Positions 5,013-63,341 of a stretch of DNA of 64,000 nucleotides are shown here, piece after piece. A program made the translations under genes and the position numbers. A model generated the notes under the pieces. It saw only the letters and a list, made by a program, of their open reading frames with translations. It was not told the origin of the DNA and made no database searches. Origin of the DNA: Gracilariopsis chorda (Eukaryota; Rhodophyta; Florideophyceae; Gracilariales; Gracilariaceae); assembly GCA_003194525.1 (NCBI GenBank), contig NBIV01000322.1, positions 1 through 64,000 on the forward strand. Direction: 5' to 3'. Within the stretch, counting starts at the first letter, position 1. Every line of letters starts with the position of its first letter.

Positions 5013-8000
5013 TTATGATTGTGGAGGGATGCAGCACTGAATGGCTTCAGGCAGCACTGGGTTGAACATGGCCACAGGCATGGGATGAATTGTGTGCGCA
5101 TTTGTGGATGTAAGCTGCAGGTCATGCAGGAGTAACACATGGTCGTTCCATCGAACGCGCGACAATGCGACATACAACTGACCGGCGAAGAAGAAGTTGG
5201 ATCGTACATCCACAACCAAGCCATCCAAGGTTTTTCCCTGTACTTTGTGAACTGTAGCTGCAAACGAAAGACGAATGGGGAACTGCCTTCGAATCATGCG
5301 AATGTCTGCGAAAGAAAACTCGAAATCGATACGATGCAGGAGCTGTCGTTCCAGCACCTGTCTGTTCTCGTCGAATCGACCCACCCGCATCGTAAATTGA
5401 TCGACACGCACGACTACGAACAGCTTTTTGTTGACCACAGTGGGATGCAGCACATTCTGAATGACCATAACTGGCACACCGATCTTCCAAGTCCAAGTTA
5501 TGAGGCGGTACTCCAGTAGGCGCATACTGATATGCAAACTCGGGGACGATAGTACTGGCGAAGTCAGACTCTGGGTTCTGTCCACGTACAGGTTGCACGG
5601 TTGCCGCTGACGGAAGAGTGAAGCGCTCACCAGGAAACAGATCTAGCGCCGCCGCATTATGTTCGTCGACCAACTGATTTGTGGACGCAATGAGCATTTT
5701 GCTGAGATCCACATCCTCCTCTCGTCGTGTTGTGAGCCACTTCCACAGGAATTAGTAGGCGTTTTGCATGCCACCGGTAGATCTGAGTGGTAGTGGAGCG
5801 TGGTTGGATATTGTATTTCGTGAAATGGAACGTAACAGCGACGCAAATGCCGGATCATCGGCTTGGCGTACTTGTTTCGTGAGGTACAGCACTTGAACCG
5901 AGCACAATTTCCACAGATCACTCTTCCACGGCAATTTGTTGAGAATTTTTGTGTACACTCTTCTCACATTTCCACTTGGCTCGGCCTACATGTACACCTG
6001 CGGCACTACTGGAAGCAGCTGGGAGTAGTCGCCCGATAGAACGATGGTCAAGCCCCCAAAGGGAGGTGGGTTTTCCATTCCACTGCACCGAAGATCTTTG
6101 AGCAACGCATCCATGAGTTCGAAGAGCTTTCTTGAGAGCATGGACGCCTCATCCAAGACGAGCAGTTGTATTTCGCCTAGCAGTTCTGCACGTTGAGATC
6201 GGGGACCGTACTTTGACTAATTGGCTGTAGTGTTGCTTGTGCTGTCCCTATCAGCTACACCCAGTCCGTGAAGGCTATGTGAAGTGCGGCCACATTCGTA
6301 AAACGAAGCTGCAATGCCTGTTGTAGCAGTCATTTCGGCGAGCATTCCTTCCGACTCAACGATATCACGAAGGAGGTTGAGCACGTATGTCTTTCCGGTT
6401 CCTGCGGATCCTTGCACAAAGAACACGTTTCCAGGAGTGCTTGTTCACTTCTGCAGCGCCTGTCGTTGTTGCAATGTGGCAACGACGGTGTCAATGACTT
6501 GTCTTTGGCGAGGTTTTAAAGTGGCGTACCTTGACTGCAAAGTTGACAAATTTCGCACCACTCGCGCGTCTCGAGTTGTTGTAGCTCGATTTGCCTCAGT
6601 CAATGCTGTATGATCCTGCTATAGGTGTTGGGAGAAGAAGCTGTGATCGCGAAGCAGTCGTCCTCCGTGCCGGTCTGAGATCTCCACCACACGTCGATAC
6701 ATTTCTTTCTTTCGTTGCTGCTCATCTCCTGTATGTATGTCGCTACATAATGCCTCCCAGTTTTCAACGGCCATTTTTTCTGGGTCTGCGCCTTGTTGGT
6801 ATAGTGTGACAACCAGACGTCGTAGCTCGGAGGGCGTGCTGTATATCTGGACTGCTTCTTGGAATGCAATATCAAACTCGGATCCGTCCGCGAGCAGTCC
6901 GCTTACAATCGCAGTTTCACGATACGTTCCATACTACTGTCCGTTGAAAGTCCTTGCGTCTTCATAAGAGCTCGAGCCGTGATTCATGAGCAGCAAGCGC
7001 AGAGCAAAGAGCTCAATGTCCGACGGTGAAACACCTCTGATCCTTGCGACACACTGCTCGTCGTCCGTGCGCTCTACCACGTACATGGGCGGATCGCAGT
7101 CGTCTGTGGGCACCTGAGTGCTGTCTCCGTCGTATTGGGTAAGCACGCGGGCAGTAAGCGTGCGATACAATCGCACTTTTTCAAAGTACGAAAGGTAGTC
7201 GAGGTTCGCGTATGCTTCGGGCCTTGCAAAGTATCTCTCCAGTGTAGACGGCTGCGATGCAGAAAGAAGCTGGTTGGGACCTCTCAGCAGAAATGTGCGC
7301 TCTCCTTCCAAGTGAATGGCCAGTCGCTCTACTTTTGGTACGATTTGAACATGTCGAAACTCGAAAATTCTCCAAGCTGCATTGACGGCGCCCAACACAC
7401 GCCCTCGCATGTGTGCACGAATGTCATTTTGCGCCTGCGGCTATTGTTGCTGGTCGTTGTGTGCGCCTGTCTCATTAGCACCACTCACATTGAGCACCAC
7501 CTCCTGAGCTTTGGGCTGCTTAAACGCGTACGTCATCAGATAAGCCACTGCGCCCCCTCCTTGCGTGCGTTCTACGTTGATATGAGAGCGGTACTTCTCG
7601 GTCAGAGATGGGTTGTACGGCACTATCTTGAGGTCATGTTGCCTTCTTCTGCGGTAGACCACGCGATTTGTGCCTTCTTGAATGTACGTCTCCGGCACAA
7701 TCATGTTGCGGTCGTATCCAAACTTGCAGCGCCCAGCGCGATTCCGGCAATAGGGGGAGTGGCGGTGCCTGTGCATGGAACGAGTAAGGGCACGCAACGC
7801 GTCGTCTTCACCTGGAAGAGGAAGTTCTGCACGAATGAGCTCGTCGATCACATCAACGTCTTCAATCACGCCTCCTTCGAGCCACACGAGCATGTGGTGA
7901 TGAGGCACATTGCGCTCTTGAAACTCGAGCTTTGATGCAAGCCCCAGGCACTTCAATCCAAAGATGTGCTCCGAGTTCTTCTCCAAGTCCTTCATAAAGT

Positions 8001-10436
8001 CGTTTGCGTACTGGTTGTACACTCTCGCAATCAGATCCGGTCGGTCAAACGGTCGAGGGCAGTTACTCTGTGCCGTAAATGCGCTCCGATTGCTGGTACC
8101 CATACCAAGGCGCTATATGTCCTCTCTCCAGATGTTCATGGTGATTGTAATGAACAGAGGAGGCGGTCCTCTCCGCGCTACGATCGCCTGAACATCCATG
8201 CGCTTGTTCTTCCAGTGCGCTGCTGAGTTGACCGAGTCATCAGGCAGAAATATGCGTCCCATTGGTGCGAACTGTGATGGTGACACATGAGCTGTTTGCT
8301 GTTGTGCTTGCTGGATCTCTTGCTCTTGTAAAATAATTGCCTGTTGTTCTCCCTCCAGGAAGCGTAGTCGCATGTCCTCAATGTTTGTGTGAGTGCGGAG
8401 CATCCACATCTGCATCAACGGTCCACTGTTGAGGAGGATGTTGTCCGAGTACAGACGTCGCTTCGCGTTCTGAGCCCAGGTGAGCTTTCGGAGCTTCCAC
8501 TCGTTGACGCTGAGACCTGAGCTTTGCTGTGTGGAGTTCCTTGCATCCAGAAACAGGCCGATGTCAAACGGTTCGTGCTGATCGCCGTACGGGTAGAGAA
8601 GAGGGAAAGTGCCCTTCTCTGCAAGTTTGGATGCCGGTTTTAGAAGTCGGTACCGCACTTGCGCATTGTTTGCGGCATTCGCAATCGCCCCTGCTCCAGC
8701 AGCAGCAGCACTCGTCACTGCAGCGTGCTCTTTGGTTACGGTTCCTTCTACCAAACGCGGTACCTGAGACTCCACTCGGTACAGGCCAGTGGGATCAACC
8801 ACGAGTGTTCTCATCATGGTTGGCCCCCCACCCGGAACATCTTCAGGGAGAAGGCCAGCACCTGCATGAGGGGTACTGACTGTAGCACTTCGGGTTCCTT
8901 CGTATCCACGTACGACTACTCCTTGTTCTGCTGCTTGCACGCTGATATCCACGGCAGTCTCCGCATTATGTTGTTGTTGTTGCTGTTGCGTGCTAAGCAA
9001 GGATCGGTAACGTTCGCGCACCACGTCTGGCTTCGGCTGGATCACATAATACAAATTGGGTACGATGTCTCTTAAGTTGATGTCCTGAATGAACGCACGC
9101 ATATTGGCACGAGCATAGTGAGATGGATCTAAGGAAGGCGGACCGGTACCCCACAAAAAGCTGTAGCGCGTGTTGTTCTGGTTCTGCGTGGGCAGAGCGA
9201 AAGCTGCGTTGCCCTCAAGTCTGAGAAAGGAGGGACCGCCTCCCGTCACATACGACATGTCCATGAACGCTTGTGTCGTCGCGAAGAGCGTATTCAAGTT
9301 GAGGAAATGGCTGTGAAAGGCTCTCAGGCTATAAAGACTGCGAACCAACTCGCTGCTATGCCTTCTGCGGAACGTGACGCCCCACCCTGACATTCTTTTC
9401 ATTCCACAGCACACTCCATTGGTCTCTTTGCCAAGCAAAACGCATCCACAGTACTTGCAGCTATGAATTCTCAATTTCCCGTACGCGTACGGGCAGGAGG
9501 AGAGCGTGTGTGCGTGCTCGCCGCATCTTCCGCATCGCCTTTAACCCGCAGTGGAAAGCGTCTCAAACTCCCGCACGCTTGCACGGATGGCCTGATCATT
9601 CCTCGCCTGAGCTGCCACGGAATCCCACGCATAGTACACGCGATAGAGTCCTCGATCAGGACGCTCAGCACAGTGCATGACCGTCGTATCAAGCTGTTGC
9701 TGTGGCTGATGCTGCGGCTGGTGTGAGGGAGCCGGTGTGATCTCATCCGCTTCCACCTCCATCGGAATGGACATCTGTTTTTCTTCCTGTTCAGCTTGTG
9801 GCAACGCAGGCTGCGGGGGCGGGTGTGAGGGAGCCGGGGTGATCTCATCCTCTTCCACTTCCATCGGGACTGGCATCTGTTCTTCCTCTTGTTCAGCTTG
9901 TGGCAGAGCAGGTTGCTGTGGTGGCGGTGGCTGTGAGGGAGCAGGGATGATCTCATCCTTTCCATTTCCATCGCAATAGGCATCTGTTCTGCAGGCATCG
10001 GTGGGAGAGGGGGAGGCATCGGAGGCGGTGGAATGTGACTTGGAAGGCCTCTCACACACTCCAGAAATCCAGGAATTGGGCACGATGTTGGTAGATCTGT
10101 GGCAGCGGACCCACTGGCTCCAGCAGCGCTTGTGCTAACTGCTGCTGCAACCGAAGTAGGTGCAGGAGTAATTTCGTCTTCTTCAACTGCTGGAACAATA
10201 GGTCCTTGAACGTGTGCTCCGCTCTCATTTACTCCCAACTTATCTGGGGCTGGAGGAGCTGGTGCTCTTCGGGGTCTTCCAGCTCCTGCCTGTGCTCCAC
10301 CACTGCCGACGCGACGACCACCAGCGTTTTGCCTTGAACCGCCTGCTTTCAACCTGGCACCTCCACAACTGTCTCTGGCACCTCCCGAGTTAGATCGGAC
10401 GCCACCAGAGTTCAGACGTCGCCCTCCTCTCGTCAT
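5013..10436 (-). pseudogene. Helitron Rep-PIF1 helicase gene, decayed
   Basis: Encodes the replication initiator/helicase that nicks and unwinds Helitron DNA. It starts at an ATG at 10436 with a Gly/Arg-rich leader, then Pro/Glu repeats (about 9960-9720). Then come Cys pairs (CGRCG, CKYCG, about 9537-9400), the Helitron_like_N block with PLLYPYGD, and the HUH Rep motif RNVPHHHMLVWL (about 7890-7920). The two-tyrosine nicking motif AYLMTYAFK follows (about 7518-7544), then the helicase: Walker A GSAGTGKTY (about 6384-6410), Walker B LDEASM, SGDYSQLLPV, and a C-terminal block with [15 protein letters not shown] and YVALSRVR (about 5130-5260). One frame runs from about 9980 to 5500 with in-frame TAG at 8113, 7441, 6934, 6619, 6217 and 5986, TAA at 9541 and 5752, and TGA at 6445. 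Frame changes lie near 9960 and 5500. All key motifs survive. Confidence 0.9.
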
Positions 10437-11516
10437 TTAAATTTACCAAAGAAAAAAAAACAATTGTATGTTTTTCTACCGGTAAAAACTTTGCCAGAGT
10501 TCCAGAATAATTCCCAATAATACACAAAGTTGAAAATAAAAAACTGGTTGCAGTTTGTTGCTTTGCACCCACCGGGCATAGTCGCATGCAGCAATAAAAA
10601 AATTGCTGCAAGGCTTATATTTACCCGATGCAGTCGTGCGCAGCACAGGGACTCTCGACACACTCCTGTTGGATTATGACGGGCGGAGTGTGCCCAGCCG
10701 GTTTTCAAGCAGTTTGATGTTTAACCTGCGTCCTGTTGTAAGGATTGGTCTGCCTTTACTCAAACACCTAAGTGTGCTTTCCGGCCCCAAGAGGTACGAC
10801 ACGGCGGCCGCCCCGAACCCTGCACAGCAAGCTGGTATTAGGTCCGTTAAACCCTCAGACTTCCTGATCGCCGTCAAACGACCAGTGTACCACAGAGGAG
10901 CACCTGACCTTTCCAAGATCCGTGGTACCTAGTGGGTTCCTCTTGTGGCGACCGGCACACGAGCTCGGCCTTGCCTTGGTCCCAAGCCAGCAAACCGTGC
11001 CCAAAGTAGCAAAAGTTTACGACACTGCGCTATTGGCCAAGCCTCAATGGGATGCAAAATAGAGGTTAGGGTCAGCAAGCGAGATGCATTTGGCACTGCG
11101 CCAGTGCAGTATATACGTCTGTTGCAGGCATGTCTGGAATGAAACTTCAGTATACACTGCCCTGGCGCAGTGCAATTTGCCACGTGTTGGAATGCACTGC
11201 ACTGGCGCAGTGCAATTTGCCACGTGTCAGAATGAACCGCTGGGTTTTAGCTGCTGAGTGGCTGGCACTACATTTTCATTGTATTGCAAGCCATTCAGCA
11301 GCCATTGCACAGTCAACATCCAGCAGCAGCAGCTAATTAACTGAACGCTTGGCTGCTGCTGCTGCTGCTGAATTTTTTAAATGGTAGGGAGGCGTTGGGC
11401 CAAATGGGCGTTTTGCATGCGCGTAGAGGGGCATACAGGGCCGTTTATTGGCGCACCGCCTCCATTCAATCAAGAAGACCCCCCTCATACATGAACAAGT
11501 ACTTATAGGGGAGAGA
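10437..11516 (-). other. Helitron 5' untranslated region
   Basis: About 1.1 kb between the Rep-helicase ATG and the element's 5' TC end. The outer part (about 11330-11516) carries the CTG tract and 5' terminal region shared with the short units. The inner part (10437-11100) has no recognisable coding sequence and is a plausible promoter region. Two near-identical segments around 11160 and 11200 (CACTGC...TTTGCCACGTGT) form a short direct repeat. Confidence 0.55.
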
Positions 11517-11980
11517 AAAGTGGAAACGGCCTTCGGGCGTGAGCGGCGCTGAGCGCCGCGTTGTTTTTGTAGCTTTGTGTACTTAGTAGCGTTGGGAGGC
11601 CCTCCGAGCACTTTGCTCGCTTACGCTCGCAATATTGCTCGTAGAACCATAGGGCGCCGCGGCGCCTAGAGTATGTGGAGCCGTAGGGATTTGCGTTTAG
11701 GTGCCTAAATTGACTTCAGTGCCAGCTAGTGATAAAAAAGCGCGACACGTTGCTTTCTGTAACTGGCTGGCACTGCAGTCATTATGGGAGTGCCAGCCAG
11801 TAAGCAGCAAGCTTTGCTGCTGCTGCTGCTGCTAAATGCTTTAAATGGTAAGGAGGCGTTGCGCCAAATGGGCGTTTTGCATGTGCAAACGGGGGCGTGC
11901 AAAACGATTTTGTGGCGCAACGCCTCCATTCAATCAAGAACACCCCCCTCATACGCGTGTAAATCATTGTAGTGAAGAGA
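11517..11980 (-). mobile_element. non-autonomous Helitron unit R1
   Basis: A 464-bp unit of the unit-4 subfamily. The 3' end reads CCACTTT, then TCTCTCC of the autonomous-type element; the 5' end is TCTTCACTAC at 11980. A 12-bp stem (CTGGCTGGCACT at 11764-11775 with AGTGCCAGCCAG at 11789-11800), a CTG tract and the 3' hairpin are present. Confidence 0.85.
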
Positions 11981-12455
11981 AAAGTGGAAACGGCCTTCGG
12001 CCGTGGGAGGCGCTGCGCGCCGCGTTGTTTTTGTAGCTTTGTGTATTTAGTAGCATTCGGAGGCTCTCCGAGCACTTTGCTCGCCTGCGCTTGCAATAGT
12101 GCTCGTAGAACTATGGGGTGCCGCGGCGCCTAGAGTATGTGGAGCCGTAGGGGTTTGTGTTTAGGTGCCTAAATTGACTGCAGTGCCAGCCAATGATTGG
12201 AAAGCGCGACACGTTGCTTTCTGTAACTGGCTGGCACTGCAGTCATTATGGGAGTGCGAGCCAGTAACCGGAAAGCTTTGCTGCTGCTGCTTCTGCTGCT
12301 GAATTTTTTAAATGGTAAGGAGGCGTTGCGCAAGATGGGTGTTGTGCATGCGCAAACGGGGGCATGCAAAGCGAGTTTGTGGCGCAACGCCTCCCGTCAG
12401 TCAACAACACCCCCCTCATGCATGAGCAAATCATTAAGAGTCGGGGGTTTTGAGA
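11981..12455 (-). mobile_element. non-autonomous Helitron unit R2 (5' end of concatemer)
   Basis: A 475-bp unit of the same subfamily as R1. Its 5' end TCTCAAAACC, preceded by A (plus-strand T at 12456), is the outer 5' boundary of the whole tandem array. Its 3' end CCACTTT joins R1. It has the same hairpin, stem and CTG tract. Confidence 0.85.
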
Positions 12456-15375: not shown

Positions 15376-17251
15376 TGGAGCAATATCCCTAGGCGGGAAA
15401 TCTGTGGAGCAAAACCCGTGCGGGTTGTAGCTCTCAAGGCGTCCGAGTCCTTGCTCCCTATGGAGGGTAGACTCAGTGGACGAGCCCTCTACTCCACACG
15501 AGTTTCGGGTGTAAATCCAACGGTGGATACTGGCTATACCTGTAGAGGTCAATACGAAGAATCCTGAGAGGAACGAGATCAGAGAAGAATCCAAGTTAGG
15601 GGACGTAGACAGCGTACTCAGCAAATGTAGTGTCCCAAAGGGGGAAAAGAACCAGACAACGAGGAGGCGAGGGTCGTGCTCAAAGCGACAACAGACCCTA
15701 GAACTAAGGGGTAAAACAGGAACAACAACCAACGAAACAACCCAATACTGGGGCAGAGATCTGTCCTGCAACAGGATACGCAAGATAAACAGAGTAAGGT
15801 TAGACCCACGGTCGGTGTAATTAAACAGATGTCCTGAGTGGTCCCAAGGGGGTAGTCGTACTGAAACCAAACGTCGTTACTCTCCAGATGGAGTCGTGAC
15901 CCTATGAGGGCAGTTGCGACCAGAGCCCGCTCTAGTTTGTCAGACTAGAGCGATGGTTTTGAAGACCAACCTTGGTTGAGTTTACTGTGACCGTGCTACG
16001 GCAAGGTCACTCCCACCTAAGTAAGGTTCACTAGAAATATGTAAATTAATTAAAGAAATTAGTGCACACCTTCTCAGGGCGAAACACGTGGAGGACCCAG
16101 TTTCAAGGGCCAAAGTAAGCTAACCTACTAAATAGATTCCGAAATTGGAGCCAAAAATTCCCACGCGTGCCACGCGTTTGTCCTGTACCAGTCCATCTAG
16201 AATTCACATGAAGGGGAAAATTCACACTGAAGATTTCCCCAATTGAACCCACAATTGAGGCAAATCCGTACATCGATAATGCCTCTAAGGAGGGTAAAAG
16301 CAACTCCCAAAGGAGATGTTTTGCTCCACAAAATCCTCCCCAGATGTTCGCAGCGTTGCACTCTTGTGAGATAGGGGCAGCGACAGAGCCCTCCGTACCA
16401 CAAGGTGTTCCAGTGTAAAACCGAGGTGGCTTCCTGCTATACCGACGGAGATGATACCGTAAATCGGGTTACCAGCTGGTCAACGTAGTGCACAGGTCCG
16501 TGTGAGTGCTGTTCAAGTCCACGGAGAATCCAGAAAGGGAGAACGGAAAAGGAGAGAAACGAAAAGGGAAGGTACAAATCGGCGGGTCGTGCAGAAAGCC
16601 GAAAGAAACCCGGCGGTGGGCGGTGTTGCTCGTTCCGCCAGCACGGCAAAACTCAATACTGAGTCAAACGGCTATCTATTCCCAAAGTAGAAAGCAACCA
16701 AAACCGTAAAAACAGTGAACAGTAGCCAAACCCACGGGGTCATACAGATCAGTGGTCTTTAGTGATACTGTGCGGGTGAGTATAACGAGACCCAACGGGG
16801 TGAAACCCCAGCAGGAGTTGGTCACTTCGCGCAGGCGATAAATTCATAGCCGAGTCAAAGCTTGTCTTTACTTCAGCGTGATACGGGAAGGCTGCCCTCC
16901 CTTAACTACTATTGGGTCACAATGAACTAAGAATACTACTACTGTAGTGTGCCACACTTGTGGTCCACAAACTTGTGTCGCTTAGTGGCACTGCCGGCCA
17001 CGGCGCAACACGACACGTGTGAATCATGCTAACCATGAATAACATCCGTACGCTTGCCACGCGATCATTTGTTCCAGATACCACAGAAATCATCCACGAG
17101 GGTTCCAAACATACCAATTAAAATTCATATCGAATTTCACCCAATACTTCCCAGGGTCCACTCATACCTGAGTTGACCCGATGCCACTTCCGTATTGTAT
17201 CATTCACGAACCACATCACCGATGGGGTATTTGTGCAAGCATTGCTCTACA
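15376..17251. mobile_element. solo LTR of the N type, itself interrupted
   Basis: Starts TGGAGCAATAT, ends ATTGCTCTACA, and matches the two LTRs of element N (44195-45137 and 54890-55807) through most of its length. Without the inner insertion it is about 943 bp, equal to the N LTR. Flanks read TTACTTG (15369-15375) and TTACTTA (17252-17258), a probable target duplication of 6-7 bp. It lies inside copia element 1, so it is younger than that element. Confidence 0.85.
15403..16330. mobile_element. solo LTR nested inside the solo LTR
   Basis: A 928-bp solo LTR with 13-bp inverted ends (TGTGGAGCAAAAC and GTTTTGCTCCACA), flanked by the 5-bp duplication AAATC at 15398-15402 and 16331-16335. Internal sequence (CCCAAAGGGGGAAAAG, multiple short purine tracts) resembles the B-type LTRs at 60500 and 17911 but is diverged. 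It is younger than the LTR it interrupts. Confidence 0.85.
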
Positions 17252-17910: not shown

Positions 17911-18791
17911 TGTACTGCAATGTCCAGCGACGGGAAATACGACTAAAATGTTCGAGATCTTCCTCTCACGAGGTTTTTCCAGTTGAAGAGCCCTTCCAGG
18001 GATGACACGATGGAGTCGGTTGTAAGAAGAGACCAAACTTGGCAACAAGCGCAGGAGGGAGGGCAAAGAAGCCAGCTACTGCAGTGTATCACTCCAACGA
18101 GGGGGAATATGTCCAGATGTTGGCACACATACGACAAATGCCAGTATGAGCCGCAGATAGTAGAAGCTATCCGAAGTAAAGGTGGAAGTGAAGACTAGTA
18201 GAGGAAGGGAGTTTGAGATAAGGGAAAAGCAACGAGTCACGGAAGTGGCTCGGGATAGTTCGGCACTGCAGAGAAATAAACCGTATATACGGGAGAAACC
18301 ATACAAAATTGGTACTATCCCTAACATGGGTTACTTGGCGAGCAAGGGGGTTGAACAGTCCGTAGGCAACGGGGTATCTTTCCGGGAAGGAACTGTGTAC
18401 CGCCGAAGGCGCGAAAGCTCAAATCCAAGATCCTTGAATGAGTAACCCCTTACTGAGGAGGAGTTACTGACGCGACTGACGCGACTGACGCGACTGACGC
18501 GACTGACGCGAGGCCGGTGCGCTAAGTAGTGTGGCTTCCCTACTGTAATAACTAAATAAATGGATAAATAGATGAATGTATCATTACAATCCGTTGCCTA
18601 TCTATCTTTGATCACAATTGTCACTACCACCTCGTGTCCGACGGGTACTTCCGACGTGCCGAGCCAACCGGAACTCATAAACAGCCCCATCTTTCTAGGG
18701 AAAAGTTATGTATGAACATATATCAATCGCCAGAGCGACCGGGAAAACTTATGGAGTCCCCTGAGAATCCTCTGCAGGGGGGTGTTCTCCA
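17911..18791. mobile_element. B-type LTR of a broken Ty3 element
   Basis: Begins TGTACTGCAATGTCC and shares blocks with the LTR of element B, for example GATCTTCCTCTCACGAGG near 17958 and CGCTAAGTA near 18517. It ends near GGTGTTCTCCA at 18791. Just outside lies TATCTCCCTCTT, in minus orientation a purine-rich tract like the one inside the B LTR. So this is the 3' LTR of a minus-strand element. The flanks are not duplicated, so it is not a simple solo LTR. Confidence 0.65.
18466..18510. repeat. 9-bp tandem repeat, five copies
   Basis: Five perfect copies of ACTGACGCG within the LTR at 17911-18791, rich in CpG. Short array typical of LTR-length variation. Confidence 0.9.
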
Positions 18792-18837: not shown

Positions 18838-19640
18838 GATGGCAGGAAGTCCACGTAAAAGCACGTTGCCTCCCGGTTCGCCGGCCATTTCATCCAAGTT
18901 CGGCGTCATCCAATGACGGCTTCTGATACTTTTGACATTCCGCTTCATCGGCGAGCTTCTCCTGGCTCTCCAACTTCTCCGACCATGTCCAACCTACCTC
19001 ACAACCAGCTCTCAGGAAGTTTGTAGTGAATCTGCACCGGCGTCCGGTCTTTTCTTATTCTTCGACGTTAGAGCCTTTCTATTTCGGAGGAAATCGCAAT
19101 TCATCGCGGTCACATTGATCACCCCATCAGGGGTATTTTCCCTGGTTAGGCGCATTTCCAAGTTTGGCCTATCTATGACTCCCTTTTGAAGGCAAATCCG
19201 AACACGCGGCTAGGTTCCCTCCGACTGAGTCGTGCACCGTCGTTTCATCCAATAGCCATTCATGACGAGACCTTGATCCATTTTCTGTACCGAAAACTCG
19301 GCGAACCTTCCAGGAGACATCCCTGGTCTCATCACCCTGCGATGGGCCTGGAAAAACTGCCTTGCTATCCCAGTCCATCAAATCCCCCTCAATGCGGGAT
19401 AATGTGCGTCAGAAGCCCATGCCACACTTTTGTGATTGGCTCATCTCCCGCAGTGCTGGGCTTCTTTCGAGATCCGCCTCTGATCTTCACTATTACGCTT
19501 CCTATTACGGACCGAGCTACGCTTATCGTTCACTTTCTTTACGTCATGGAACGCTTCCTCCCGCGCAAATCATACGTCCAACGGTTTTTGTGTATTGAAA
19601 TTACCTTAAAGGGGGTGTTGACGAGTTTAGCAGGGCAATG
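18838..19640 (+). pseudogene. probable remnant of the antisense accessory gene beside the LTR at 17911
   Basis: Directly inside the LTR edge an ATG at 18838 opens a short Ser/Pro/Lys-rich frame (begins MAGSPRKSTLPPGSPAIS). Position, strand and composition parallel the start of the 595-codon gene at 61363 (MGDKSACFVSGSPVNPSAP), and the DNA between LTR edge and ATG is partly alignable by eye. Further right only weak similarity is left. Fossil with several breaks. Confidence 0.4.
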
Positions 19641-39005: not shown

Positions 39006-39187
39006 GTGGCGAAGGTCCGTGGACCGGAGTGTCGAGCGAAGGAGAGCGCGAAGATGAGATTACGAAGGGGAGGTGTACCGAAGGAAGTGCACGTGAGAAG
39101 CACGGGCGGTGTTCTAATGTATTTCATGAGAATGAGGCCACGAGAGATCAAGATGGAAATGGTGGCACTCCCATCCGATCGAGGAAT

Positions 39188-40816
39188 ATGGACATCGTCC
39201 CTGACGTAGAGAAAGAAAGCGGACGCAATGCGCTGCGTACACCGGAAGGAATGCGGGAGAGAAGGCGAAGAATTTCGGTATCATTTGACCGATCTTTCGA
39301 AATGGGATTGGAGGCGGAAGAGAATGTGAATAAGTCACCCCGTGATGAGCAAGTGGTGAGTACCGATGTTGTGAAGGACCTTGATGATGATGAGATCGGT
39401 GTGTTGTCTAGACCTACATTGGTTCAGAAGGTGAATTCGCTAAAGGGAGAACTTGGAAGCCTTAAGGAGGACCATACTACTTTAAAGATATCTTTGAAGC
39501 TGACACAGGAGGAACTGAAGAGGATGAGGGAAAAAATGATCGAGAAGAACATGCTGATTGACAGTTTGAGGGAAGGGATAAAGGTAAGGAGTGCGGAGAG
39601 AAGAAGAGCTGAAGGGGGAGACACTGATTTGACGAGGCGTAAAAAGTATGTGGTTGATGTGGACGAGAGCTTTTATGGATTTGCTAGGGTAGTGTATGAT
39701 AGGATATTGTATTACGCAAAGTTGGAAGTGTCGGAGCTTTGTTTTACTACGGATCGAATGGAGAGGAACTGGACGAACCGGTGTGAGATCTTAGGGAAAG
39801 GGACGGAGTCGAGTGTATTCGTAGTGGGAGGGAACGAAATTGTTCCTCGGTGTCCCTTTGAGATCGTATCGGAGATGAGGGCGTATACACCGAGTTTGCG
39901 AGGAGGAAGCAATGAACTTTTGAAGTATTTGATTGGTGTTGAGATTGAAGGGCATAGATGGGAGTCGATTCGACAAGCGGGTAAGAAGATTCAGTGTATG
40001 CAGGACGTAGCTCGGGACAGGTGTTTGAGGCAGCGTATGAAGCAAACGTTGAGCGATGTGATTGGGGTTCGGAAGCGGGCGGCACGGGAAAAGTTGTTTT
40101 CGCTACTTGGGTATGACTTGATAGCAAGACGTGTGAGACCTCAGGAGGGGACGGAGCTTGATGTGGAATTGAAGAAGCAGTTAGAGGAAGCGAGAAGCAA
40201 GTTAATGGGAAAGGAGGTAGAGAAGAGCCGAATCTTATGTGCATGGAGAATGAGTGCGATTGACGATCTTACATATTCTGGATTTCAAGTTGCTCGAAGG
40301 TTAAGGGACTTTGGTGGGGAGGACATGTACTTTAAGAACGGAGCTGCGGTAGAAGTGCTGGCAGAGTTTATGGGATATGAGGTGGTACCGGGAGGCGAAG
40401 GGAAGACAGATTATGTGGATGGAACTGTGATGCATTTGGCACGCTTGGATGCTTGGATCGGATGTGTTTTGACTGCGTTGGACACGAATGTGGGCCGTGG
40501 AGGAAAACGGCAGTTATTGTTTTCAAAGTTGTTTGGTGAGTATCTCCCGCTTGCTCTGGAGAACATAATTGGGGTGGCATGGGAGAGAGTGAGGGAACGG
40601 CACCATGAGGAATTGGAGAATGAAGGGTTCGACGAGGGGGATCCGCGTCGCATAGCAGGGAATGAGAATAGGAAAGCGACGGTTGCGCTTTGGATACCTT
40701 CGAAGCGGGAGATCTACTTGGCAATGAGGGATGAGTACTTCGTGGACGACTTTCTTTCCGAGGGCTGCAGCCATGGGATGTGCGAAAGCCGGGTGACCAG
40801 AAGACGAAGAAGATGA
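39188..40816 (+). CDS. large hypothetical coiled-coil protein, about 542 aa
   Basis: The open frame begins at 39029 without ATG; the first in-frame ATG is 39188 (MDIVPDVEKESGRN), which I take as the start. Charged N-terminus with RERRRRISVSF. A clear coiled coil (TLVQKVNSLKGELGSLKEDH through RMREKMIEKNMLIDSLREG) spans about residues 80-135. A mixed globular part follows (DESFYGFARVVYDRILYY) and a long helical C-terminal half (LNKLLGYD-type and EYLPLALENIIGVAWERV patterns). It ends in RVTRRRRR, possibly a nuclear signal. No known enzyme motif seen. Its 3' end overlaps a minus-strand frame by about 290 bp. It could be a host gene or a protein of an unknown mobile element. Confidence 0.6.
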   Translation: MDIVPDVEKESGRNALRTPEGMRERRRRISVSFDRSFEMGLEAEENVNKSPRDEQVVSTDVVKDLDDDEIGVLSRPTLVQKVNSLKGELGSLKEDHTTLKISLKLTQEELKRMREKMIEKNMLIDSLREGIKVRSAERRRAEGGDTDLTRRKKYVVDVDESFYGFARVVYDRILYYAKLEVSELCFTTDRMERNWTNRCEILGKGTESSVFVVGGNEIVPRCPFEIVSEMRAYTPSLRGGSNELLKYLIGVEIEGHRWESIRQAGKKIQCMQDVARDRCLRQRMKQTLSDVIGVRKRAAREKLFSLLGYDLIARRVRPQEGTELDVELKKQLEEARSKLMGKEVEKSRILCAWRMSAIDDLTYSGFQVARRLRDFGGEDMYFKNGAAVEVLAEFMGYEVVPGGEGKTDYVDGTVMHLARLDAWIGCVLTALDTNVGRGGKRQLLFSKLFGEYLPLALENIIGVAWERVRERHHEELENEGFDEGDPRRIAGNENRKATVALWIPSKREIYLAMRDEYFVDDFLSEGCSHGMCESRVTRRRRR

Positions 40817-42100: not shown

Positions 42101-44194
42101 ACGCGGGCCGTGAACCTTAGACGGGACGCACCCTACAGCTCGGGAGCAGGACTTGTTGTACACCGGCAATGGGAGAGGTCAGGCCCCTCACCTCCCGTAT
42201 TCACACGGATTCATTGAAAATCAGTTGCCTTGTTGGTAGAGAAACCGCTCCTAGGGAGTGATAAACAATGCTCGGAAAAGGGCCCCACGTGCCGCGGTGA
42301 TAGCCATCATTTTACATTTGTGCTACACGCATGGCCGTATCTCCCCGCAATTTCTCTGCTCTATCTGGGCTCTGCCGAAAATATTCATCAATTACGAGGC
42401 TTTGAATCCACAAGAGAAGTCGTTTGTCCTGGTAACGTCCCACTTGCGTGCCAAGAAAGACTTTTGGCACGCAATGCCTACTGCTTCTTTCCAGAGAGCC
42501 GGCATGGCTCGGCGGTCCCACCTCATTCACCGTACGATAGATCAAAACTCCGCTTCGGCGGATAACCGAGGTCAGAATGGCCAGATTTTCGTGGTCCAGG
42601 AACCTAAGCAACCAGCTCAGGAAACCCCGATACAGGGAAACCAACCGAGGGAGTCTGCTTTTTGGGAGAGGCGTCCTCAAAGTCGAGGTTGTTGACGCCC
42701 GAGGCGCAAGCACCTCACTTCCTGGTGAGTATCATCTCGAGGAAGCACGCCACAGACGCGGGTTTGGATCAATTCGGTGTTCTGCGTGGACCTTGGATAC
42801 AGAAAGAGAATAGCCGGCTACCGGACCAAATTATTTTGATGTCCAGGCGCAACTAGAAGGTTTACGCTGACTTTGGCTTAGACCCCAATTTATGGTGAGA
42901 CATTTAACTGTCCTGGACAGAAGAGCAGGTCCGAAATTAATGGAAGAATAGGCCCTACCCCCACAGCGGTGGTGTCACATCTGACTGGAAACTGCTCCCG
43001 ACATCTCGGACGCGAAGAACAACCCTTCGAAAATGGTAGAAAGGATTTGGTTAGTAGTCAGACTCAGAACATCCGCGTTGAAGCTCAGAATTAGTTTTTG
43101 TCGTTCGTTAGTGCCTCCAGACAGTATGGGATGTGATTACTGCGACAGGTTCGTCGAAGCATTCAAGCCCTGCCAGACACAGGTCTAACTTGAAGATGGG
43201 TCGTCCGGACCTATAGTTCGTAAGCCGCTGAAGTTAGCTATGAAGAAGGAAACCGTGCTCCTCACAGGCAGGGACGACTCCCGGCGTCGGTTTCTATACC
43301 TTCAGAGTCCCAGGTAAGGTGCAGGTCATGTCCTGTCAACACGGCTTGCTGGTACTCCAACCCTTGCCCTCGTTATACGAGACGTATCAGCTGACCATCG
43401 CAAGTGGCCTGGGCCAAGGGGAACCGGAGGCCCCGTTTCTGGTTCTGGTTGCCAATCTTGGTACCACTGCCAATAATCTGGTGAAGAACCCAAGTAATTC
43501 GATCGCCAACCCCGCATTGGCTGGCGATAGTGCCAACGAAGGTGACGGCAACTGATGTTCTTGGTATAGTGACCTCTGAGAAGGACATGAAACCCACTGA
43601 GGAGAAATACGGTACCACAGTCGCGACGGCTAAGCCACACGATCATTTGGACCTAGCATTTGATAAAGGCAACCACGCCTGGACGATTTATGACCGAATC
43701 GACTGGATAAAGGCTCCGCAGGAGTTCGATCTCGTCACGTACCGGACTCGCACCGTGGGTGGCAAGGTGATCTATTACGGGAGTTTACCACAATGTGAGA
43801 TGGCTCCCTTGGAGTGATTGACACGACCAAAAACTGGATCGATTTGTTACCGAACACTTGGCCAATCGCGCAACCCACGAACAGGGCGGGTCGGAAAGCT
43901 CAGAGAGAGGAACAGTTACAGGTGGACAAGATGCTCCAAATCAGAGATATTGAACCCTTGCAGTCTCCGTGGGCATCACCAGTTGTTCTGGGATTCAAAA
44001 CTGACGGTTCTTAGGGGTTCTGCGTGGACTGCCGCCGCTTGAACGCCGTGACGGTACGGGATACATACCTCATACCTGGTGTGAATGAGTTTATTGCATC
44101 CCTGGTAGATGCCTCAATTTTCAAGGCTTTGGACGCCAATTGGCGATATTGGCGAGTCCCTGTTAGGAAAAAGACCAAGATAAGACTGTCTTTG

Positions 44195-45137
44195 TGGAGC
44201 AATATTCCTAGGCGGGAAATCTTCGCAAGGTGTTCGCAGCCTTGCTCTCTTGTGAGGTAGGCGCAGCGACAGGGCCCTACGTATTGCACGGTGTTCGTAT
44301 GTAAAACCAAGAGGGCTTCCGGCTATACCGACGGAGGTGATAACGAAAACCGGGTTACCAACTTGTCAACGTAGTGCACAGGTCCGTGTCAGCGGTGTTT
44401 CGGTCTAATGAGAATCCAGAAAGGGAGAAAGGAAAAAGGGGGGACACCGAAAGGGAGGCTACAACCCGAGGGGTTGTGAAGAAAGACTAAAAAACCCAGC
44501 GGTGGGCGGTGTTGCTTGTTGCATCAGCACGGCAAAACGGAATACTGAGTCGAACGATTATCTGTTCCCACGATAGAAAGTAACCAAAATGGTAAAAACA
44601 GTGAACACTGGCCGAGCCCACGGGGTAGGGCAGATCAGCGGTCCCTAGTGATACTGTGTGGGTGAGTATAACGAGACGAAACGCGGTGAAACCTTAGCAG
44701 GAGTTGGTCCCTTCGCGCACGCGATAAACTCAGACCAGAATCACAGCTTGTCTTTACTTCAGGGTGAAGCAGCAAGGCCGTCCTCCCTTAAGTAATATTG
44801 GGTCCCAATAAACTAAGAATAATACTACTGTAGTGTGTTACACTTGCGGTCCACACACTTGGGCCACTTGGTGGCACTGCCAGCCATGGCAAAACACGAC
44901 ACGTGTGATTCATGCCAACCATGAATAATATCCGTATGCTTGCTACGCGTCCATCTGTTCCAGATATCACAAAAATCATCCACGAAGGTTGCAAAAATAA
45001 CAAATAAAATTCATATCCATTTTCACCCAGTATTTCCAAGGGTCTACTCATACCTGAGTTGAACCGCTGCCACGTGGGTCTTGAATCATTCACGATCCAC
45101 GTCACCTAGAGGGTATGCTCACATACATTGCTCTACA
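44195..45137 (-). repeat. 3' LTR of element N (943 bp)
   Basis: Ends TGGAGCAATAT and TTGCTCTACA on the plus strand. Pairs with 54890-55807 and with the solo LTR at 15376-17251. Confidence 0.92.
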
Positions 45138-45379: not shown

Positions 45380-47048
45380 TCTTCCGGACTGAGCCAGTTT
45401 CCTATGGCTCCATAGGCTCAAGGTAACGCTCCGATAACCGTTCTGGCGCTCTTCCACGCGTGGATATCTTCTTGGAGCACTCTTTTTGTCATAGAACAAC
45501 TCGGGTGGGTTCACAGGGTAACCCTGGAAGCACGGTATCCGTTACATAATCCTTCGGTCTATGCCCGAGCTCCGTGGTCTCACCCATCCGAGGTTTTCAA
45601 CAGGCCGCCGATCCAGCCCTATGCACACGACGTCATTCTCCCTGGTGAGTGTCTACTTGACGTGGTCACTTTACGCGATTGGCGGGGACGTATTGCGTTG
45701 AATCCCAACATTTTAAGGAAAGAACTCTGCCGTGGAGAGAACCTGGATAGGCCCCAAGAAGAAATGATGCGCCTCACTTAGAAACGGCTTATGCGTACTC
45801 GAAGTCAACATCTGATTCCCAGTGACTACGAATTCGACGTATCGAGGTATCGTACCTATGGCGAAGTATTCTATGGGGATAACCTGGCCCGATTCTATAT
45901 GGCACACTTCGAAACCGCAACGCAGGTAACCATCGAGTCCGATATGCTCTGTTGGGCGAGGCGTATCATCGCTGCGGATTTTTGGTTCCTGCGACGTTCT
46001 GAAACGCAAGCAGCGTTCTCCAAAAAGATAAGGTTTGAGCGCAAGGCGCGTTCCCAACATGAGTATTTGATTCCATACACCAATATCGAAACCAAATGGT
46101 ATCTCCACTAATCTTCCAGGGTCACTTCGCAGCGTTACCACCGTGGTGGCGTCACATTGAGATACCCAAGGGGCGTTTCCCGGAGCTTCCCCCCTGTTTA
46201 ACATATATAAGTTCCCACGTCATTAATGATCCTAAATCCGGTTATTGGTCGCTTATTGCCGCAGAGTGGGCTACCCGCACAGCGGTTTTCCTTCTCTGGG
46301 AAGCGTATGACCACTACCGTCTTTGGTTCATACCGCGGATGGTATGGAACATCATCAAACAGCTCAACCTGGTAATCCCATTTGGATGCCAAAACAAGGT
46401 GGAAGAAGTCTTATAAATCATGGATGTGATCGACTAGCTCAACTGGGATAGTGTTCCGTGGGAGAACCGTGATCAGGGTACGAGAAATTCTCGTGGCAAA
46501 TCTCCGAGTCGCCAGCATCCAACTGCTGGGGACTTTGTCTATTACGACCCGTATGTGGGTGCAATGGTGGCCCCTGCTCATGCATTTGAGCAGCTTAGTT
46601 TTCTGCGGACCATACCAGCAGTGCATCCGACAGATTCGCATTTCATGACGATTACGAGCCGTTGGTCGACTTAGATAAACCGATGGTGGATGACGAGGCC
46701 AACGAGAGTGGTGGCCTTTACGATGGACCGGTCATAGATTCAGATGTTCCGAGCAACGCTAGTGCTTCCAACCAATAGGGTGCTCCCGAAGGGTGGGGCT
46801 TCGTGACTCAGATGACTGAGCCGCAACGTTTAGTGGATGAGCCACTTACGGTTGTAGGGAACGCGCACGTCATCTGGTTGCGCGAGAACCTCCAAAACCT
46901 TGGAATCCCGGTACCTCCGGACATGGTAGATGTTGCACAGCTCCTGGTTCTCGCCACGGTGAACTATCCTCAGTCAACCATTCAATCTGGTGCAGGCTCT
47001 TCGTCAGGACAACTTGAACTCAGTATTCTAACCTTCACGTATCGGTGA
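45380..47048 (+). pseudogene. antisense accessory gene remnant of element N
   Basis: Plus-strand fossil between the N LTR and the end of N pol, antisense to pol. Blocks in the same order as in the 595-codon gene at 61363 are readable: a block with SDYEFDVSRYRTYGEVFYGD (partner PPEFGFDVSYFCTRGEIGYG), then NDPKSGYWSLIAAEWATRTA (partner QDPRSGLWSVVVTEWAARSA), then EAYDHYRLWF and NLVIPFG. The similarity is at protein level over about 200 residues while the DNA is well diverged. Broken in several places. Confidence 0.75.
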
Positions 47049-54671: not shown

Positions 54672-54889
54672 CGGTAGAACCAGTGCGAGAATTGGGGGCT
54701 AGTGGCGGCACACAGCATGCCAGTTACCGGAGTGTTCAGAACTTCAATGAACTCGAATCAGAGGTTTCCAACGAACTGAGGAAACACAAAGATCTTGATG
54801 GATTCTTCCAAAGAACTGGAACCGCCAAAAATGCACAACCTGATCAAACTAACTATAGGTGAACCAATTCTACGGCGAGAGACCACTTT

Positions 54890-55807
54890 TGGAGCAATAT
54901 CTCTAGGCGGGAAATCCTCCCAAGGAGTTCGCAGCCTTTCCCTCTTGTGAGGTAGGCGCAGTGACGGAGCCCTCTGTACCGCACGGTGCTCGGGTGTAAA
55001 AGTGAGGTGGCTTCCGGCTACACCGACTGAGGAGATACCGAGAATCGGGTTACCAGCTGGTCAAAGTAGTGCAAAGGTCCGTGTGACCGGTGTTCCAGTG
55101 CACGGAGAATCCAGAAAGGGAAAAGGAAAAAAGGGGAGAAACCAAAAGGGAGGGTACAACCGGGCACGTCGTGCAGAAAGCCGAAAGAGACCCGGCGGTG
55201 GGCAGTGTTGCTTGTTCCGCCAGCACGGTAAAACGAAATACTGAGTCGAACGACTATCTGTTCCCATAATAGAAAGTAACCAAAACGATAAGAAACAGTG
55301 AAAAATGGGCAAGCCCACGGGATAAGACAGATCAGCGGTCCTTAGCGATACTGTGCGGGTGAGTATAACGAGACTGAACGCGATGAAACCCCATCAGGAG
55401 TTGGTCACTTCGCGCAGGTGATAAACTCAGACCCGAATCACAGCTTGTCTTTACCTCAGGGTGAAGCGGCAAGGCCGTCCTCCCTTAAGTACTATTGGGT
55501 CACAATAAACTAAGAAGAATACTACTGTAGTGTGCCACTTGGCGGCACTGCCGGGCACGGCACAACAAGGCACTCGTGAATCATGCCAATACTGAATAAT
55601 ATCCGTACGTCTGCCACTCATCCATCTGTTCCAGATACCAAAGAAATCATCCACGAAGGTTCCAAAAATACCAATTAAAATTCATATTGAATTTCACCCA
55701 ATATTGTTGAGGGTCCACTCTACCTGATTTGAACCGATGACACGTCGGTAATGAGTCATTCATGATCCACCTCGCCTAGAGGGTATGCGCACACGCATTG
55801 CTTTACA
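54890..55807 (-). repeat. 5' LTR of element N (918 bp)
   Basis: Ends TGGAGCAATAT and TTGCTTTACA on the plus strand; in element orientation it is the upstream LTR, next to the candidate primer-binding site. Confidence 0.92.
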
Positions 55808-60084: not shown

Positions 60085-60490
60085 GCCCCCCTTGCAGGGA
60101 TCAATTCCAACTCCCTGGGGAGGACCTGCATCTAGGCGATTCCTCCATGCATCCTGCATTGCGACGACATCCCCGGTTACTTCATTCTTACTCAAACCTA
60201 CCTCTCGGAGAAACCGAGCGTTCACATCCCTCGAATCACTGGTATTCGGGGTGGAGATACCACTGCCCGCCACGGGAGGTAAAGCTGTCGGAACGGAAGT
60301 CGGAGGAGCCATGGTTGCGGCTACCGTAGCCAGTGGAACGGAAGAAACTTGTGAATCAGAACCGCTTTCCTGCACGGTAGCATCCACGTCTTGGTCGGCA
60401 TTCCCAACAGTAGGTAACTTGGCCCCGGCCATTTCCGTATCTATTGGATCAGTGTCCACCATAGGGTTCCCTCCGATGTAGGATTGGTAA
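60085..60490 (-). pseudogene. antisense accessory gene remnant of chromovirus A (C-terminal part)
   Basis: Minus-strand fossil, antisense to A pol and directly downstream of its chromodomain. Blocks match residues about 485-590 of the intact gene: DDYYQSYIGGNPMVD against DDYYRAYGGDDPMVD, then an acidic/Pro-Ser linker, then ARFLREVGLSKNEVTGDV against ARFLRGAGLSAAEVSGDV. It is cut off at 60499 by element B, so the rest of the gene should lie right of element B. Confidence 0.75.
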
Positions 60491-60499
60491 TAATCGTCC

Positions 60500-61306
60500 T
60501 GTGGTGCAATGCCCCAAAGGGGAAAAACACCGAAAGACGTCCGGGATCTTCCTCTCACGAGGTGAACCCAGTTGGGTAGAGCCCTCCCAGAGGTGTCACG
60601 GCGAAGCCGGTTTGTAAGACCAGGGACACCTGTCGCGACTCGCGCAGGGAGGTGAAGGCGAAGGATCGGTATCCGCGTGAGCGGGGCGTGATCCTCAGTA
60701 GAGGTATGTTTCCACGTAAGTGGGGGTGTGTGAGCGGATGCGCACACGAGGGCCGCGGATAGCGGGAGGTGCTACCCTAAAAAGGGGAAAGAGGAAGGAC
60801 GAGTGGGTCGCGAGAGCGACGAGTAGATACGGCAATGCCGGTGGACAGGACTCCCTATACAGGGCGAAACACCAATATGATTGGAACAATTAGTACTCCC
60901 AATGATGGGTCTCCTTTAGATGTGCAAGGGGGGTGAACTTCCGTACACTACGGTGCTTCCCTCCAAGGAGGAGTTGAGAACACGCGGAGGCGGTAAAGCT
61001 CAGAGCCAATTCCCCAGGTTGGGGTCCCTTGTTGGGGAAGGTTTACTGGTGCGACGGCAGTGCGCCGTCGCACTAAGTACTAGCTTCCCAGAAATGGGTG
61101 TGAAAATAATAAATAAAATTAACTAAAATACTCCACATTCCGTGGCAACATCCACTACTGTGGCCAACCGCCAATTGACCCAAAACCGTGTCCCACGTGT
61201 CCATACCCACCATTGTGGGGCGTAGTTCATATACACACTACACAACCGATAATATCGGGAAAGCGTTCAAGTACCCAGAATCCCTCCCTGAGGGCGTTGC
61301 ACTTCA
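60500..61306 (-). repeat. 3' LTR of chromovirus B (807 bp)
   Basis: Plus-strand ends TGTGGTGCAATGCCCC and GGGCGTTGCACTTCA are imperfect inverted repeats with TG...CA termini. Ends are shared with the solo LTR at 22604-23380. Contains an AATAATAAATAAAATT stretch near 61099 that may hold processing or promoter signals. Confidence 0.85.
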
Positions 61307-61362
61307 TATCCCCCCCTTAAGACGGGAAAACGACCGCGGGCGCGGAGGATTCCCAGACGAAA

Positions 61363-63150
61363 ATGGGTGATAAAAGCGCGTGCTTTGTCTCCGGTTCTCC
61401 GGTAAATCCCTCTGCACCAGAGTCATCAAGCACACAAACGACAACAACAGCCACCCTCCAAAAGGGACAAATGAACGACGACAACCATATCAACAGCCAC
61501 AGCCAACCGCCGAGACTTCTCGGGCGGTACACCACCGGTTTCCGGTCAGTTCCCCTGCCTCAGGGCGATCGAAATCCGGTACAACCGGGGAATATGGCTG
61601 CTGCAGCCGACCATCCCTTCGCACTACCACCTTCGGTGGTGTCCTCCGGAACCACTCCGGTGTCCAACTGGCCAACCTACAACACCCTGGTGGGGCTCAA
61701 CCCGATGAATCGGAATCACGCGTCGCGCCTGCGCCTTGCCCCGTGGTTTCACCCGGCCGCTGTCCTCAATGAGGGGTTGGTCACCGCTTATGCGGATGGT
61801 TCAGACACCCTTCCGGGGGATCTGCCCAGAGCAGTCACCACATCGTGGGATTGGCGTCACCGGATTGCGATTCCGCGTCACCACCTCCGAAGAAACTCGG
61901 GCGAGACCGTCGCTGTGGCGCAGACCGCGTTGACGCGGATGGCGTACCAACGGCAGAGCCGGGCTCCATTCGATGTACCGGTCCCACCGGAGTTTGGCTT
62001 CGACGTTAGCTACTTCTGCACTCGCGGGGAGATTGGGTACGGCGAGAACCTGTTCCGCCTCGAGACCCTCGCTTGGAGGAATTTCCCCGCAGCGCGGCAA
62101 GAGGCCCTTTGCTGGGAGCGACCGATTATTCGGGCGGAGTTCAGGTACCTTCCCCGGCAATACCGGTCCAACTTTCTCCAAAACTTCATCCGCTACGAGC
62201 GGCGTTGGCGATCCCGATTCGGGTACTTTATCCCGTATCAGAACGTGGAGATAGAGCGGATTGCGCCGCCTCACCGACTAGGTCGGTATGTAGCACTCCC
62301 CGAGTGGTGGCGCTTCCATGAAGCCTGCCGGGGGTGCTACATAGAACTCCGGCCGGTACTTACGTACCTCGGTTCGCTGCTCATGCAGGATCCCCGGTCG
62401 GGGTTGTGGTCCGTAGTGGTTACGGAGTGGGCGGCCCGCAGTGCGGCTTATATCCTCAACGAGGCGTACGACCAGTATCGTCTCTGGTTCCTTCAACCGC
62501 GTGTGCGGGCAGCGATCCGAAACCTGGATCTTTGCATCCCCCTTGGGGGCCAGGCCAACAATGAAGAGGTCCTCCAATTACTTGGGTACATCGACAGCGT
62601 TAGCTGGAGTGAGGTCCCGCTGGAGCAAAGCGGTCGTCTGGATGGCGGCAGCGGTAACACCGGTGGTCCGGGACTCGGTAGAAACACCGCCCTTGCGGGG
62701 GATTTTATCTACTTCGACCCCTGGGAGTTCCAGGAAATTTCCTCCGAGGAGGCGCGAGAGCTTCGCGATACGCCCCGGCATGTGCCGGAAGACCACCCGG
62801 TGGGGTACGTCGATTCTGACGACTACTACCGCGCATACGGCGGGGATGACCCAATGGTCGATAACGAACCGGAAGAACCCGGGGAGATGGACGTAGAGGA
62901 AACCGGCGCTAGCGCGGAAGCTATCCCAGAGGGGGTATCTCCGGCCGAGCCGGCTGCTGACCCTTCAACGGCAAGTGCCGGACCTTCTATCCCCAGCGGG
63001 GTGACGGCGAATGAAAACGAAATCATCGCACGTTTCCTCCGGGGTGCCGGTCTTAGCGCTGCCGAGGTATCGGGGGATGTCACCACCATGGCGGACGCGT
63101 TGGCCTATTGCCTTGCTGGGGGTTACGCCCCGGACGATGGGGGTGAGTGA
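61363..63150 (+). CDS. antisense accessory protein of chromovirus B, 595 aa, unknown family
   Basis: The ATG at 61363 lies only 56 bp inside the LTR edge; the stop is at 63148-63150. The frame is uninterrupted and runs antisense to gag-pol. Residues 1-90 are Ser/Thr/Pro/Gln-rich and probably disordered. About 100-200 has WDWRHRIAIPRHHLRR. About 205-415 is the conserved core, rich in Trp, Tyr, Phe and Arg, with EFGFDVSYF, DPRSGLWS, EWAARSA and EAYDQYRLWF. About 440-545 is acidic and Pro-rich, and about 550-585 is a small conserved tail with ARFLRGAGLSAAEVSGDV. No signal peptide, membrane span, zinc site or catalytic triad is evident, so it is not an obvious envelope or enzyme. Remnants at 45380 and 60085 show the gene is old in this lineage. 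It could be a DNA/RNA-binding regulator or silencing suppressor, but that is a guess. Confidence 0.8.
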   Translation: MGDKSACFVSGSPVNPSAPESSSTQTTTTATLQKGQMNDDNHINSHSQPPRLLGRYTTGFRSVPLPQGDRNPVQPGNMAAAADHPFALPPSVVSSGTTPVSNWPTYNTLVGLNPMNRNHASRLRLAPWFHPAAVLNEGLVTAYADGSDTLPGDLPRAVTTSWDWRHRIAIPRHHLRRNSGETVAVAQTALTRMAYQRQSRAPFDVPVPPEFGFDVSYFCTRGEIGYGENLFRLETLAWRNFPAARQEALCWERPIIRAEFRYLPRQYRSNFLQNFIRYERRWRSRFGYFIPYQNVEIERIAPPHRLGRYVALPEWWRFHEACRGCYIELRPVLTYLGSLLMQDPRSGLWSVVVTEWAARSAAYILNEAYDQYRLWFLQPRVRAAIRNLDLCIPLGGQANNEEVLQLLGYIDSVSWSEVPLEQSGRLDGGSGNTGGPGLGRNTALAGDFIYFDPWEFQEISSEEARELRDTPRHVPEDHPVGYVDSDDYYRAYGGDDPMVDNEPEEPGEMDVEETGASAEAIPEGVSPAEPAADPSTASAGPSIPSGVTANENEIIARFLRGAGLSAAEVSGDVTTMADALAYCLAGGYAPDDGGE

Positions 63151-63341
63151 AACCTCTAGTCCAGTTTCCTGGTTCTTCTTTCCCTGGCTATGCCAGTTAG
63201 TGTAGTGTAGTATTGTGGGGAGCTAGCTGCTCCCTTGAATAAACTTTCCCGTTTAGAACGGTGCTTCTCGGTTGAGTTCCCCGTCTTCGACGGACCTTGT
63301 CTTGTTATCCTTTCCTTTCGCTCTCCGCTCGCGCGGCAACG

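Follow-up and report, generated by a model that had tools for sequence, protein, structure and literature searches.

The genome of the red alga Gracilariopsis chorda (Gracilariales) holds a Ty3 chromovirus, here referred to as element B, whose 3′ end carries a gene of its own running antisense to pol. The element lies at the end of a stretch of 64,000 nucleotides of contig NBIV01000322.1 (the window), and the gene, here called aORF (antisense accessory gene), is an uninterrupted frame of 595 codons with an ATG start at positions 61363-63150 of the + strand. Our observations confirm aORF as a genuine gene belonging to the element, and selection maintains its amino acid sequence with a contrast between shared and single-copy variants like that of pol. 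On balance, we favor a reading in which aORF is a convergent transcription unit driven from the U3 of the 3′ long terminal repeat (LTR), and in which its product would be a nuclear or nucleic acid-binding regulator acting in trans.

The preliminary description of the window had placed a 595-codon antisense frame between the chromodomain and the 3′ LTR of element B, with its start 56 bp from the LTR, and this layout was borne out by the frame itself, a Pfam chromodomain and mapping of the LTR. The 3′ LTR (60500-61306, − strand) is 807 bp long with TG...CA ends and has its U3 end towards aORF, the ATG of which stands 56 bp from the LTR edge at 61306/61307. Between the two lies a putative polypurine tract (61310-61321, − strand; + strand cccccccttaag), placed from aligned copies, and a polypurine-like tract occupies the equivalent place in L031-L033, L036 and L038. 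On the other side, the − strand pol frame, which contains the chromodomain (E 9.8e-11), ends at 63342 and continues as the sense gene through 64000 and beyond the window edge. The two genes converge tail to tail at the chromodomain end with a gap of 191 bp from stop to stop. An open frame that lies between pol and the 3′ LTR and reads against gag-pol, aORF has the arrangement termed aORF-3R in plant elements. The contig measures 68,014 bp (in a genome of 91.3 Mb and 1081 contigs), and its end at 68014 falls short of the 5′ end of B if B is 11.5 kb long like its sister copy; within the window, no further LTR of B type was matched.

The region is rich in G+C and two of the other frames are poor in stops (8 and 11), as might suit an open frame produced by chance or composition. 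However, the longest open run observed, 608 codons, exceeds the maximum of 462 reached in 2000 simulations of the same stretch (first-order Markov), the remaining five frames of the aORF stretch contain 8-22 stops, and amino acids are conserved across subfamilies despite saturated synonymous sites. We regard the probability of a chance frame as negligible; this candidate was ruled out by the selection tests.

Variants were counted in 21 B-type copies (L009, L011-L030) of the at least 74 in the genome, omitting sites with more than two bases. Singletons were treated as mostly post-insertion changes, and variants found in at least two copies as changes that had passed through transposition. Shared variants of aORF were 9 nonsynonymous to 18 synonymous and singletons 79 to 39 (Fisher p 0.0019), the latter near the ratio of about 2.5 expected under neutrality. 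For pol, gapped columns were also omitted and 15 of the 21 copies were used, after dropping L009, L016, L019, L020 and L023 (partial pol) and L025 (mosaic pol). In these 15 copies the shared variants of pol were 31:48 against singletons of 262:142, and those of aORF 7:18 against 56:31. By part, the region from reverse transcriptase (RT) to integrase gave 3:17 shared against 92:60 singletons (p 0.0002), and the later part of pol 23:20 against 100:55 (p 0.22).

Pairwise comparisons pointed the same way. The ratio of nonsynonymous to synonymous substitution rates (dN/dS) of aORF, pooled over 210 pairs, was 0.37 and dropped with divergence (0.62, 0.30 and 0.28 in three bins). Diverged pairs gave 0.17 (L040 and L041) and 0.14-0.16 (L032 and the L033 type, dS about 2), and in the other between-type pairs, where synonymous sites are saturated or nearly so, dN/dS was 0.23-0.31 where computable. 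It had been proposed that protein-level conservation implies past selection, and that a dN/dS near 1 among intact copies would speak against a gene; the first claim is upheld by the variant counts and by the values of 0.14-0.17 in diverged pairs, which are not near 1.

Selection and the presence of aORF in several subfamilies together support the earlier proposal of an accessory antisense gene across Ty3 chromoviruses. A genome search with the window protein, in which the best 74 of 1901 candidates were scored, found at least 74 places, the window included, at 94-100% protein identity; 62 of these 74 matches are free of internal stops, and a few are cut short, as a frameshift would do. With the distant relative P0005 as query, at least 68 diverged places were found at 36-44% identity, 52 of the 68 without a stop inside the match, with matches mostly spanning the core of the protein. 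The diverged places retrieved represent at least four further types (L033-like, L032-like, L040/L041 and L042-like), which share about 37-49% identity with B and among themselves, except for L032 and L033 (65%). Besides its B-type copy, locus L023 carries a second element, which belongs to the L042 type (98%). A host gene captured in one copy only, which the preliminary description had named as grounds for giving up its proposal, is not what these searches returned.

A sample drawn independently of the gene gave a similar picture. Forty places were scored by spacer-plus-chromodomain DNA, and in a comparison of lists that hold the best-scored places only, aORF was found for 19 of the 40. A further 15 keep at least the last 300 nt of aORF, at 98-99% over the query, and the first 738 nt are likewise present in 7 of these 15; the remaining copies were seen for the last 50 nt only (3) or appeared in no list (3). 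By this 40-copy sample and the selection shared with pol, aORF is present in most family copies and conserved like gag-pol, which are also properties of an aORF-3R.

The carrier was classified as a Ty3 chromovirus from sister copy L011, whose pol frame contains RT, RNase H, integrase and chromodomain (Pfam). pol is a single long frame of 1875 codons in L011, L013, L014, L021 and L026 and of 1885 codons in L025, and is shorter or broken in the other loci retrieved. The overlapping frame upstream of pol is, by its position, taken to be gag; a piece of this presumed gag frame had no Pfam match. A sister element on contig C110 is 11,507 bp long and appears young, because its LTRs differ at only 3 of 807 positions and it is flanked by the 5-bp repeat CTTGT. 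In the other subfamilies, all nine loci (L031-L038 plus L023's second element) have an opposite-strand Pfam chromodomain that follows the gene and scores above cut-off; a tenth protein, the second piece of L032, had none, and L040 and L041 were left out as too short. The distance from the ATG to the LTR edge is 58 bp in all four loci of two subfamilies (L032, L033, L036 and L038). For the second element of L023 the figure is 50 bp, counted from a presumed edge and assuming use of the first ATG, so that B and five loci of three other subfamilies fall within 50-58 bp.

Two loci show mixed ancestry or structure. In L025 the integrase-to-chromodomain part is of a diverged type (68-92% like L011 in 300-base steps) and the LTR, antisense gene and RT part are of B type (96-100% like L011), a mosaic that points to recombination between subfamilies. 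In L034, positions 3601-3990 match roughly half of the B-type LTR at 94% and lie upstream of an L033-type antisense gene, suggesting either a nested insertion or an LTR exchange.

The aORF product has a mass of 65.9 kDa, with a basic N-terminal part (isoelectric point 9.6) and an acidic C-terminal part (4.05). It is predicted to have a low-complexity N-terminus, a mostly helical core at about residues 100-470, an acidic linker and a small C-terminal helical module, with unstructured flanks around the core and 263 of 595 residues at a predicted local distance difference test (pLDDT) score of at least 70. Residues that the window protein shares with all of five relatives are concentrated at about positions 177-453, and the alignment shows conserved arginine-rich stretches. 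The profile search and structure prediction that had been suggested as checks were consistent with a sequence resembling nothing familiar: no match was found in Pfam (at E 1), NCBIfam, PHROGs or PDB. In the protein database searches, where the best 8000 candidates were scored each, the at least seven matches were three hypothetical proteins and four unnamed records, and no plant relative was among the scored proteins. The named relatives come from Gracilariopsis chorda (P0002, 50%; P0006, 48%) and Gracilaria domingensis (P0003, 46%).

These properties bear on whether aORF could be an envelope-like or captured host gene. Env-like genes also use the slot between pol and the 3′ LTR (PMC7264820), but they are sense-oriented and aORF is antisense, and no membrane span is indicated by hydropathy, the highest 19-residue Kyte-Doolittle mean being 0.95. 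The protein matches, known from protein records alone, are hypothetical Gracilariales proteins or unnamed records, and aORF occurs in at least five subfamilies and not in a single copy. We consider this origin improbable.

With almost no leader between the LTR and the ATG, the U3 of the 3′ LTR most likely houses the promoter of aORF, which would fire backwards, to judge from this spacing. At the other end, an AATAAA (63238-63243, + strand) that may serve as poly(A) signal for the antisense transcript lies 87 nt past the aORF stop in the window and in all 21 B copies. The motif stands 78 nt past the stop in five L033-type loci and 94-95 nt past it in L040 and L041, so that three of the five subfamilies have it downstream at 78-95 nt. 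The antisense transcript would then end before the end of pol. The relative P0005 belongs to a cluster of 7 member sequences on one 3.4-kb ENA contig; this may come from assembled transcripts, in which case it would be relevant to expression. In B, both the stop of aORF and the AATAAA are reached before the stop of pol, which leaves the proposed unit without overlap with any gag-pol reading frame. This speaks against the idea that the antisense RNA itself is what matters, in dosage control or as a source of small RNAs through pairing with gag-pol RNA, with the frame as a by-product. Convergent genes can yield double-stranded RNA, and antisense regulation has been discussed for such elements (PMC7264820), but the amino acids of aORF are under selection, both in shared variants and in diverged pairs, and we hold an RNA-only role to be very improbable.

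Antisense genes in a comparable position are known from other elements. In plants, the aORF-3R of Retand/Tat-type gypsy elements include maize Grande gene23, rice RIRE2 and Silene Retand with TRP28 (PF04195) (PMC7264820). The Grande product is described as nuclear (PMC7264820, PMC11963269), and the Retand carriers are flowering-plant elements outside the chromoviruses (PMC11963269). The likeness to plant gypsy antisense frames that had been noted for element B holds for the plan but not for the sequence, which has neither a plant relative among the scored proteins nor a Pfam match; the two systems differ in protein family, in carrier lineage (a chromovirus here) and in the start beside the LTR. 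The start of aORF lies 50-58 bp from the LTR, whereas Grande gene23 is reported to have its promoter in its own upstream region (PMC7264820). TRP28 (PF04195, Transposase_28) was not matched by the aORF protein, for which Pfam gave nothing at E 1; a scan of the genome for PF04195 was silent for its control as well and so carries no weight. Among fungi, brtn is an antisense gene of Boty-type gypsy elements in Botrytis cinerea (PMC7264820, PMC8365987), which is said to be missing from the latest B05.10 annotation (PMC8365987). It is likewise an extra antisense gene in a non-plant Ty3/gypsy element, with a fungal carrier, and is likened to aORF here by description only.

Retroviruses provide a third case, HBZ/APH of the human T-cell leukemia virus (HTLV) type, antisense genes that have spliced forms. 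They are driven from the 3′ LTR (PMC7264820), and their products are nuclear according to PMC11963269. The carriers there are retroviruses and here chromoviruses, and the sequences were compared through general searches only. A regulatory role has been proposed for the Grande gene23 and Retand TRP28 proteins, while the function of retrotransposon antisense genes is given as unknown (PMC7264820).

In the reading that we favor, several old Ty3 chromovirus subfamilies would carry aORF as a transcription unit convergent with gag-pol, with transcription starting in the U3 of the 3′ LTR, running backwards and ending before the end of pol. A soluble nuclear or nucleic acid-binding product would act in trans on element expression or silencing, in the way that HBZ acts in retroviruses, as a regulator and not as an envelope or structural protein. 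The likeness to Grande gene23 and HBZ leads us to put a nuclear regulator first, and a particle or replication cofactor comes second. Such a cofactor, which might be a second particle protein, a chaperone of RNA or an aid to integration and would work in the cytoplasm or the pre-integration complex, would equally be encoded by a conserved antisense gene. It would suit the pol-like selection contrast, the large predicted helical core, which would fit a particle or RNA-binding protein, and the conserved arginine-rich stretches. However, a family profile matched only aORF frames and remnants, and no gag or pol frame, in the window and nine loci, and a separate antisense transcript would be an odd route to a particle protein. 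We therefore think a cofactor rather unlikely.

Several points weigh against the favored reading. The regulator role is its less secure part, drawn from analogy, the charge pattern and the absence of any membrane span; the searches recognized no DNA-binding domain in the protein, and one model (mean pLDDT 60) matched no solved fold among 17 chains compared. As to selection, three near-identical L033-type pairs with few changes gave dN/dS of 0.35-0.55, the N-terminal 130 residues were without contrast (shared 3:3, singletons 14:9, p 0.67), and the C-terminal part showed a weak one (2:5 against 18:8, p 0.08). The copies counted had been taken in order of their likeness to the query protein, a ranking that favors intact ones, and the variant sites are non-independent events. 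As to the transcription unit, L032 is without AATAAA and L042 has only ATTAAA, 162 nt past the stop. More tentatively, the whole red-algal chromovirus lineage might possess an ancient, fixed, LTR-driven antisense gene, with a two-way U3 promoter and a trans regulator of novel fold that would be an independently arisen counterpart of HBZ.

The window also contains further traces of the same gene, and the remnants previously suspected in elements N and A and beside an LTR near 17911 were recovered by tblastn. A decayed aORF of element N spans 45431-46629 (+ strand; residues 89-479, in two frames), and a decayed N-terminal part lies at 18907-19474 (+ strand), near an LTR-like stretch at 17932-18027; tblastn matched 19165-19474 of it, and the match extends from 18907 with relative P0002 as query. 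The aORF C-terminus of element A remains at 60106-60499 (− strand; match 60513-60106, residues 481-587). This match overlaps the start of B's LTR (60500) by 14 bp, and since the remnant ends at about that point, element B was most likely inserted into the antisense gene of element A, judging from the sequence. Diverged long repeats at 44192-45049 and 54887-55720, 10.7 kb apart, fit an LTR pair of element N, and a third copy lies at 16306-17163; the repeat pieces listed are 66-85% identical to reference copies. Elsewhere, a second 595-codon frame (39029-40816, + strand; GTG start as listed) had no Pfam match at E 1 and at least 75 genome matches, the best at 98-100% identity and many others with stops, and appears to represent a further family of repeats or genes. 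Helitron_like_N domains in two neighboring frames at 7441-9474 (− strand), with long repeats at 4388-4853 and 11330-12447, perhaps mark a decayed Helitron.

Antisense accessory genes were previously known from flowering-plant gypsy elements, one fungal group and some retroviruses (PMC7264820). The plan seen here is thus already known from plant Retand/Grande and fungal Boty elements, and what appears new is the protein family in red-algal chromoviruses, of which we found no published description in the literature searched. The red-algal case offers numerous intact copies, a set of diverged subfamilies and a clear signal of coding selection, and makes the question of function directly testable. 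It also suggests repeated acquisition of antisense genes placed beside the 3′ LTR. By analogy, aORF perhaps helps the element to control its own activity.
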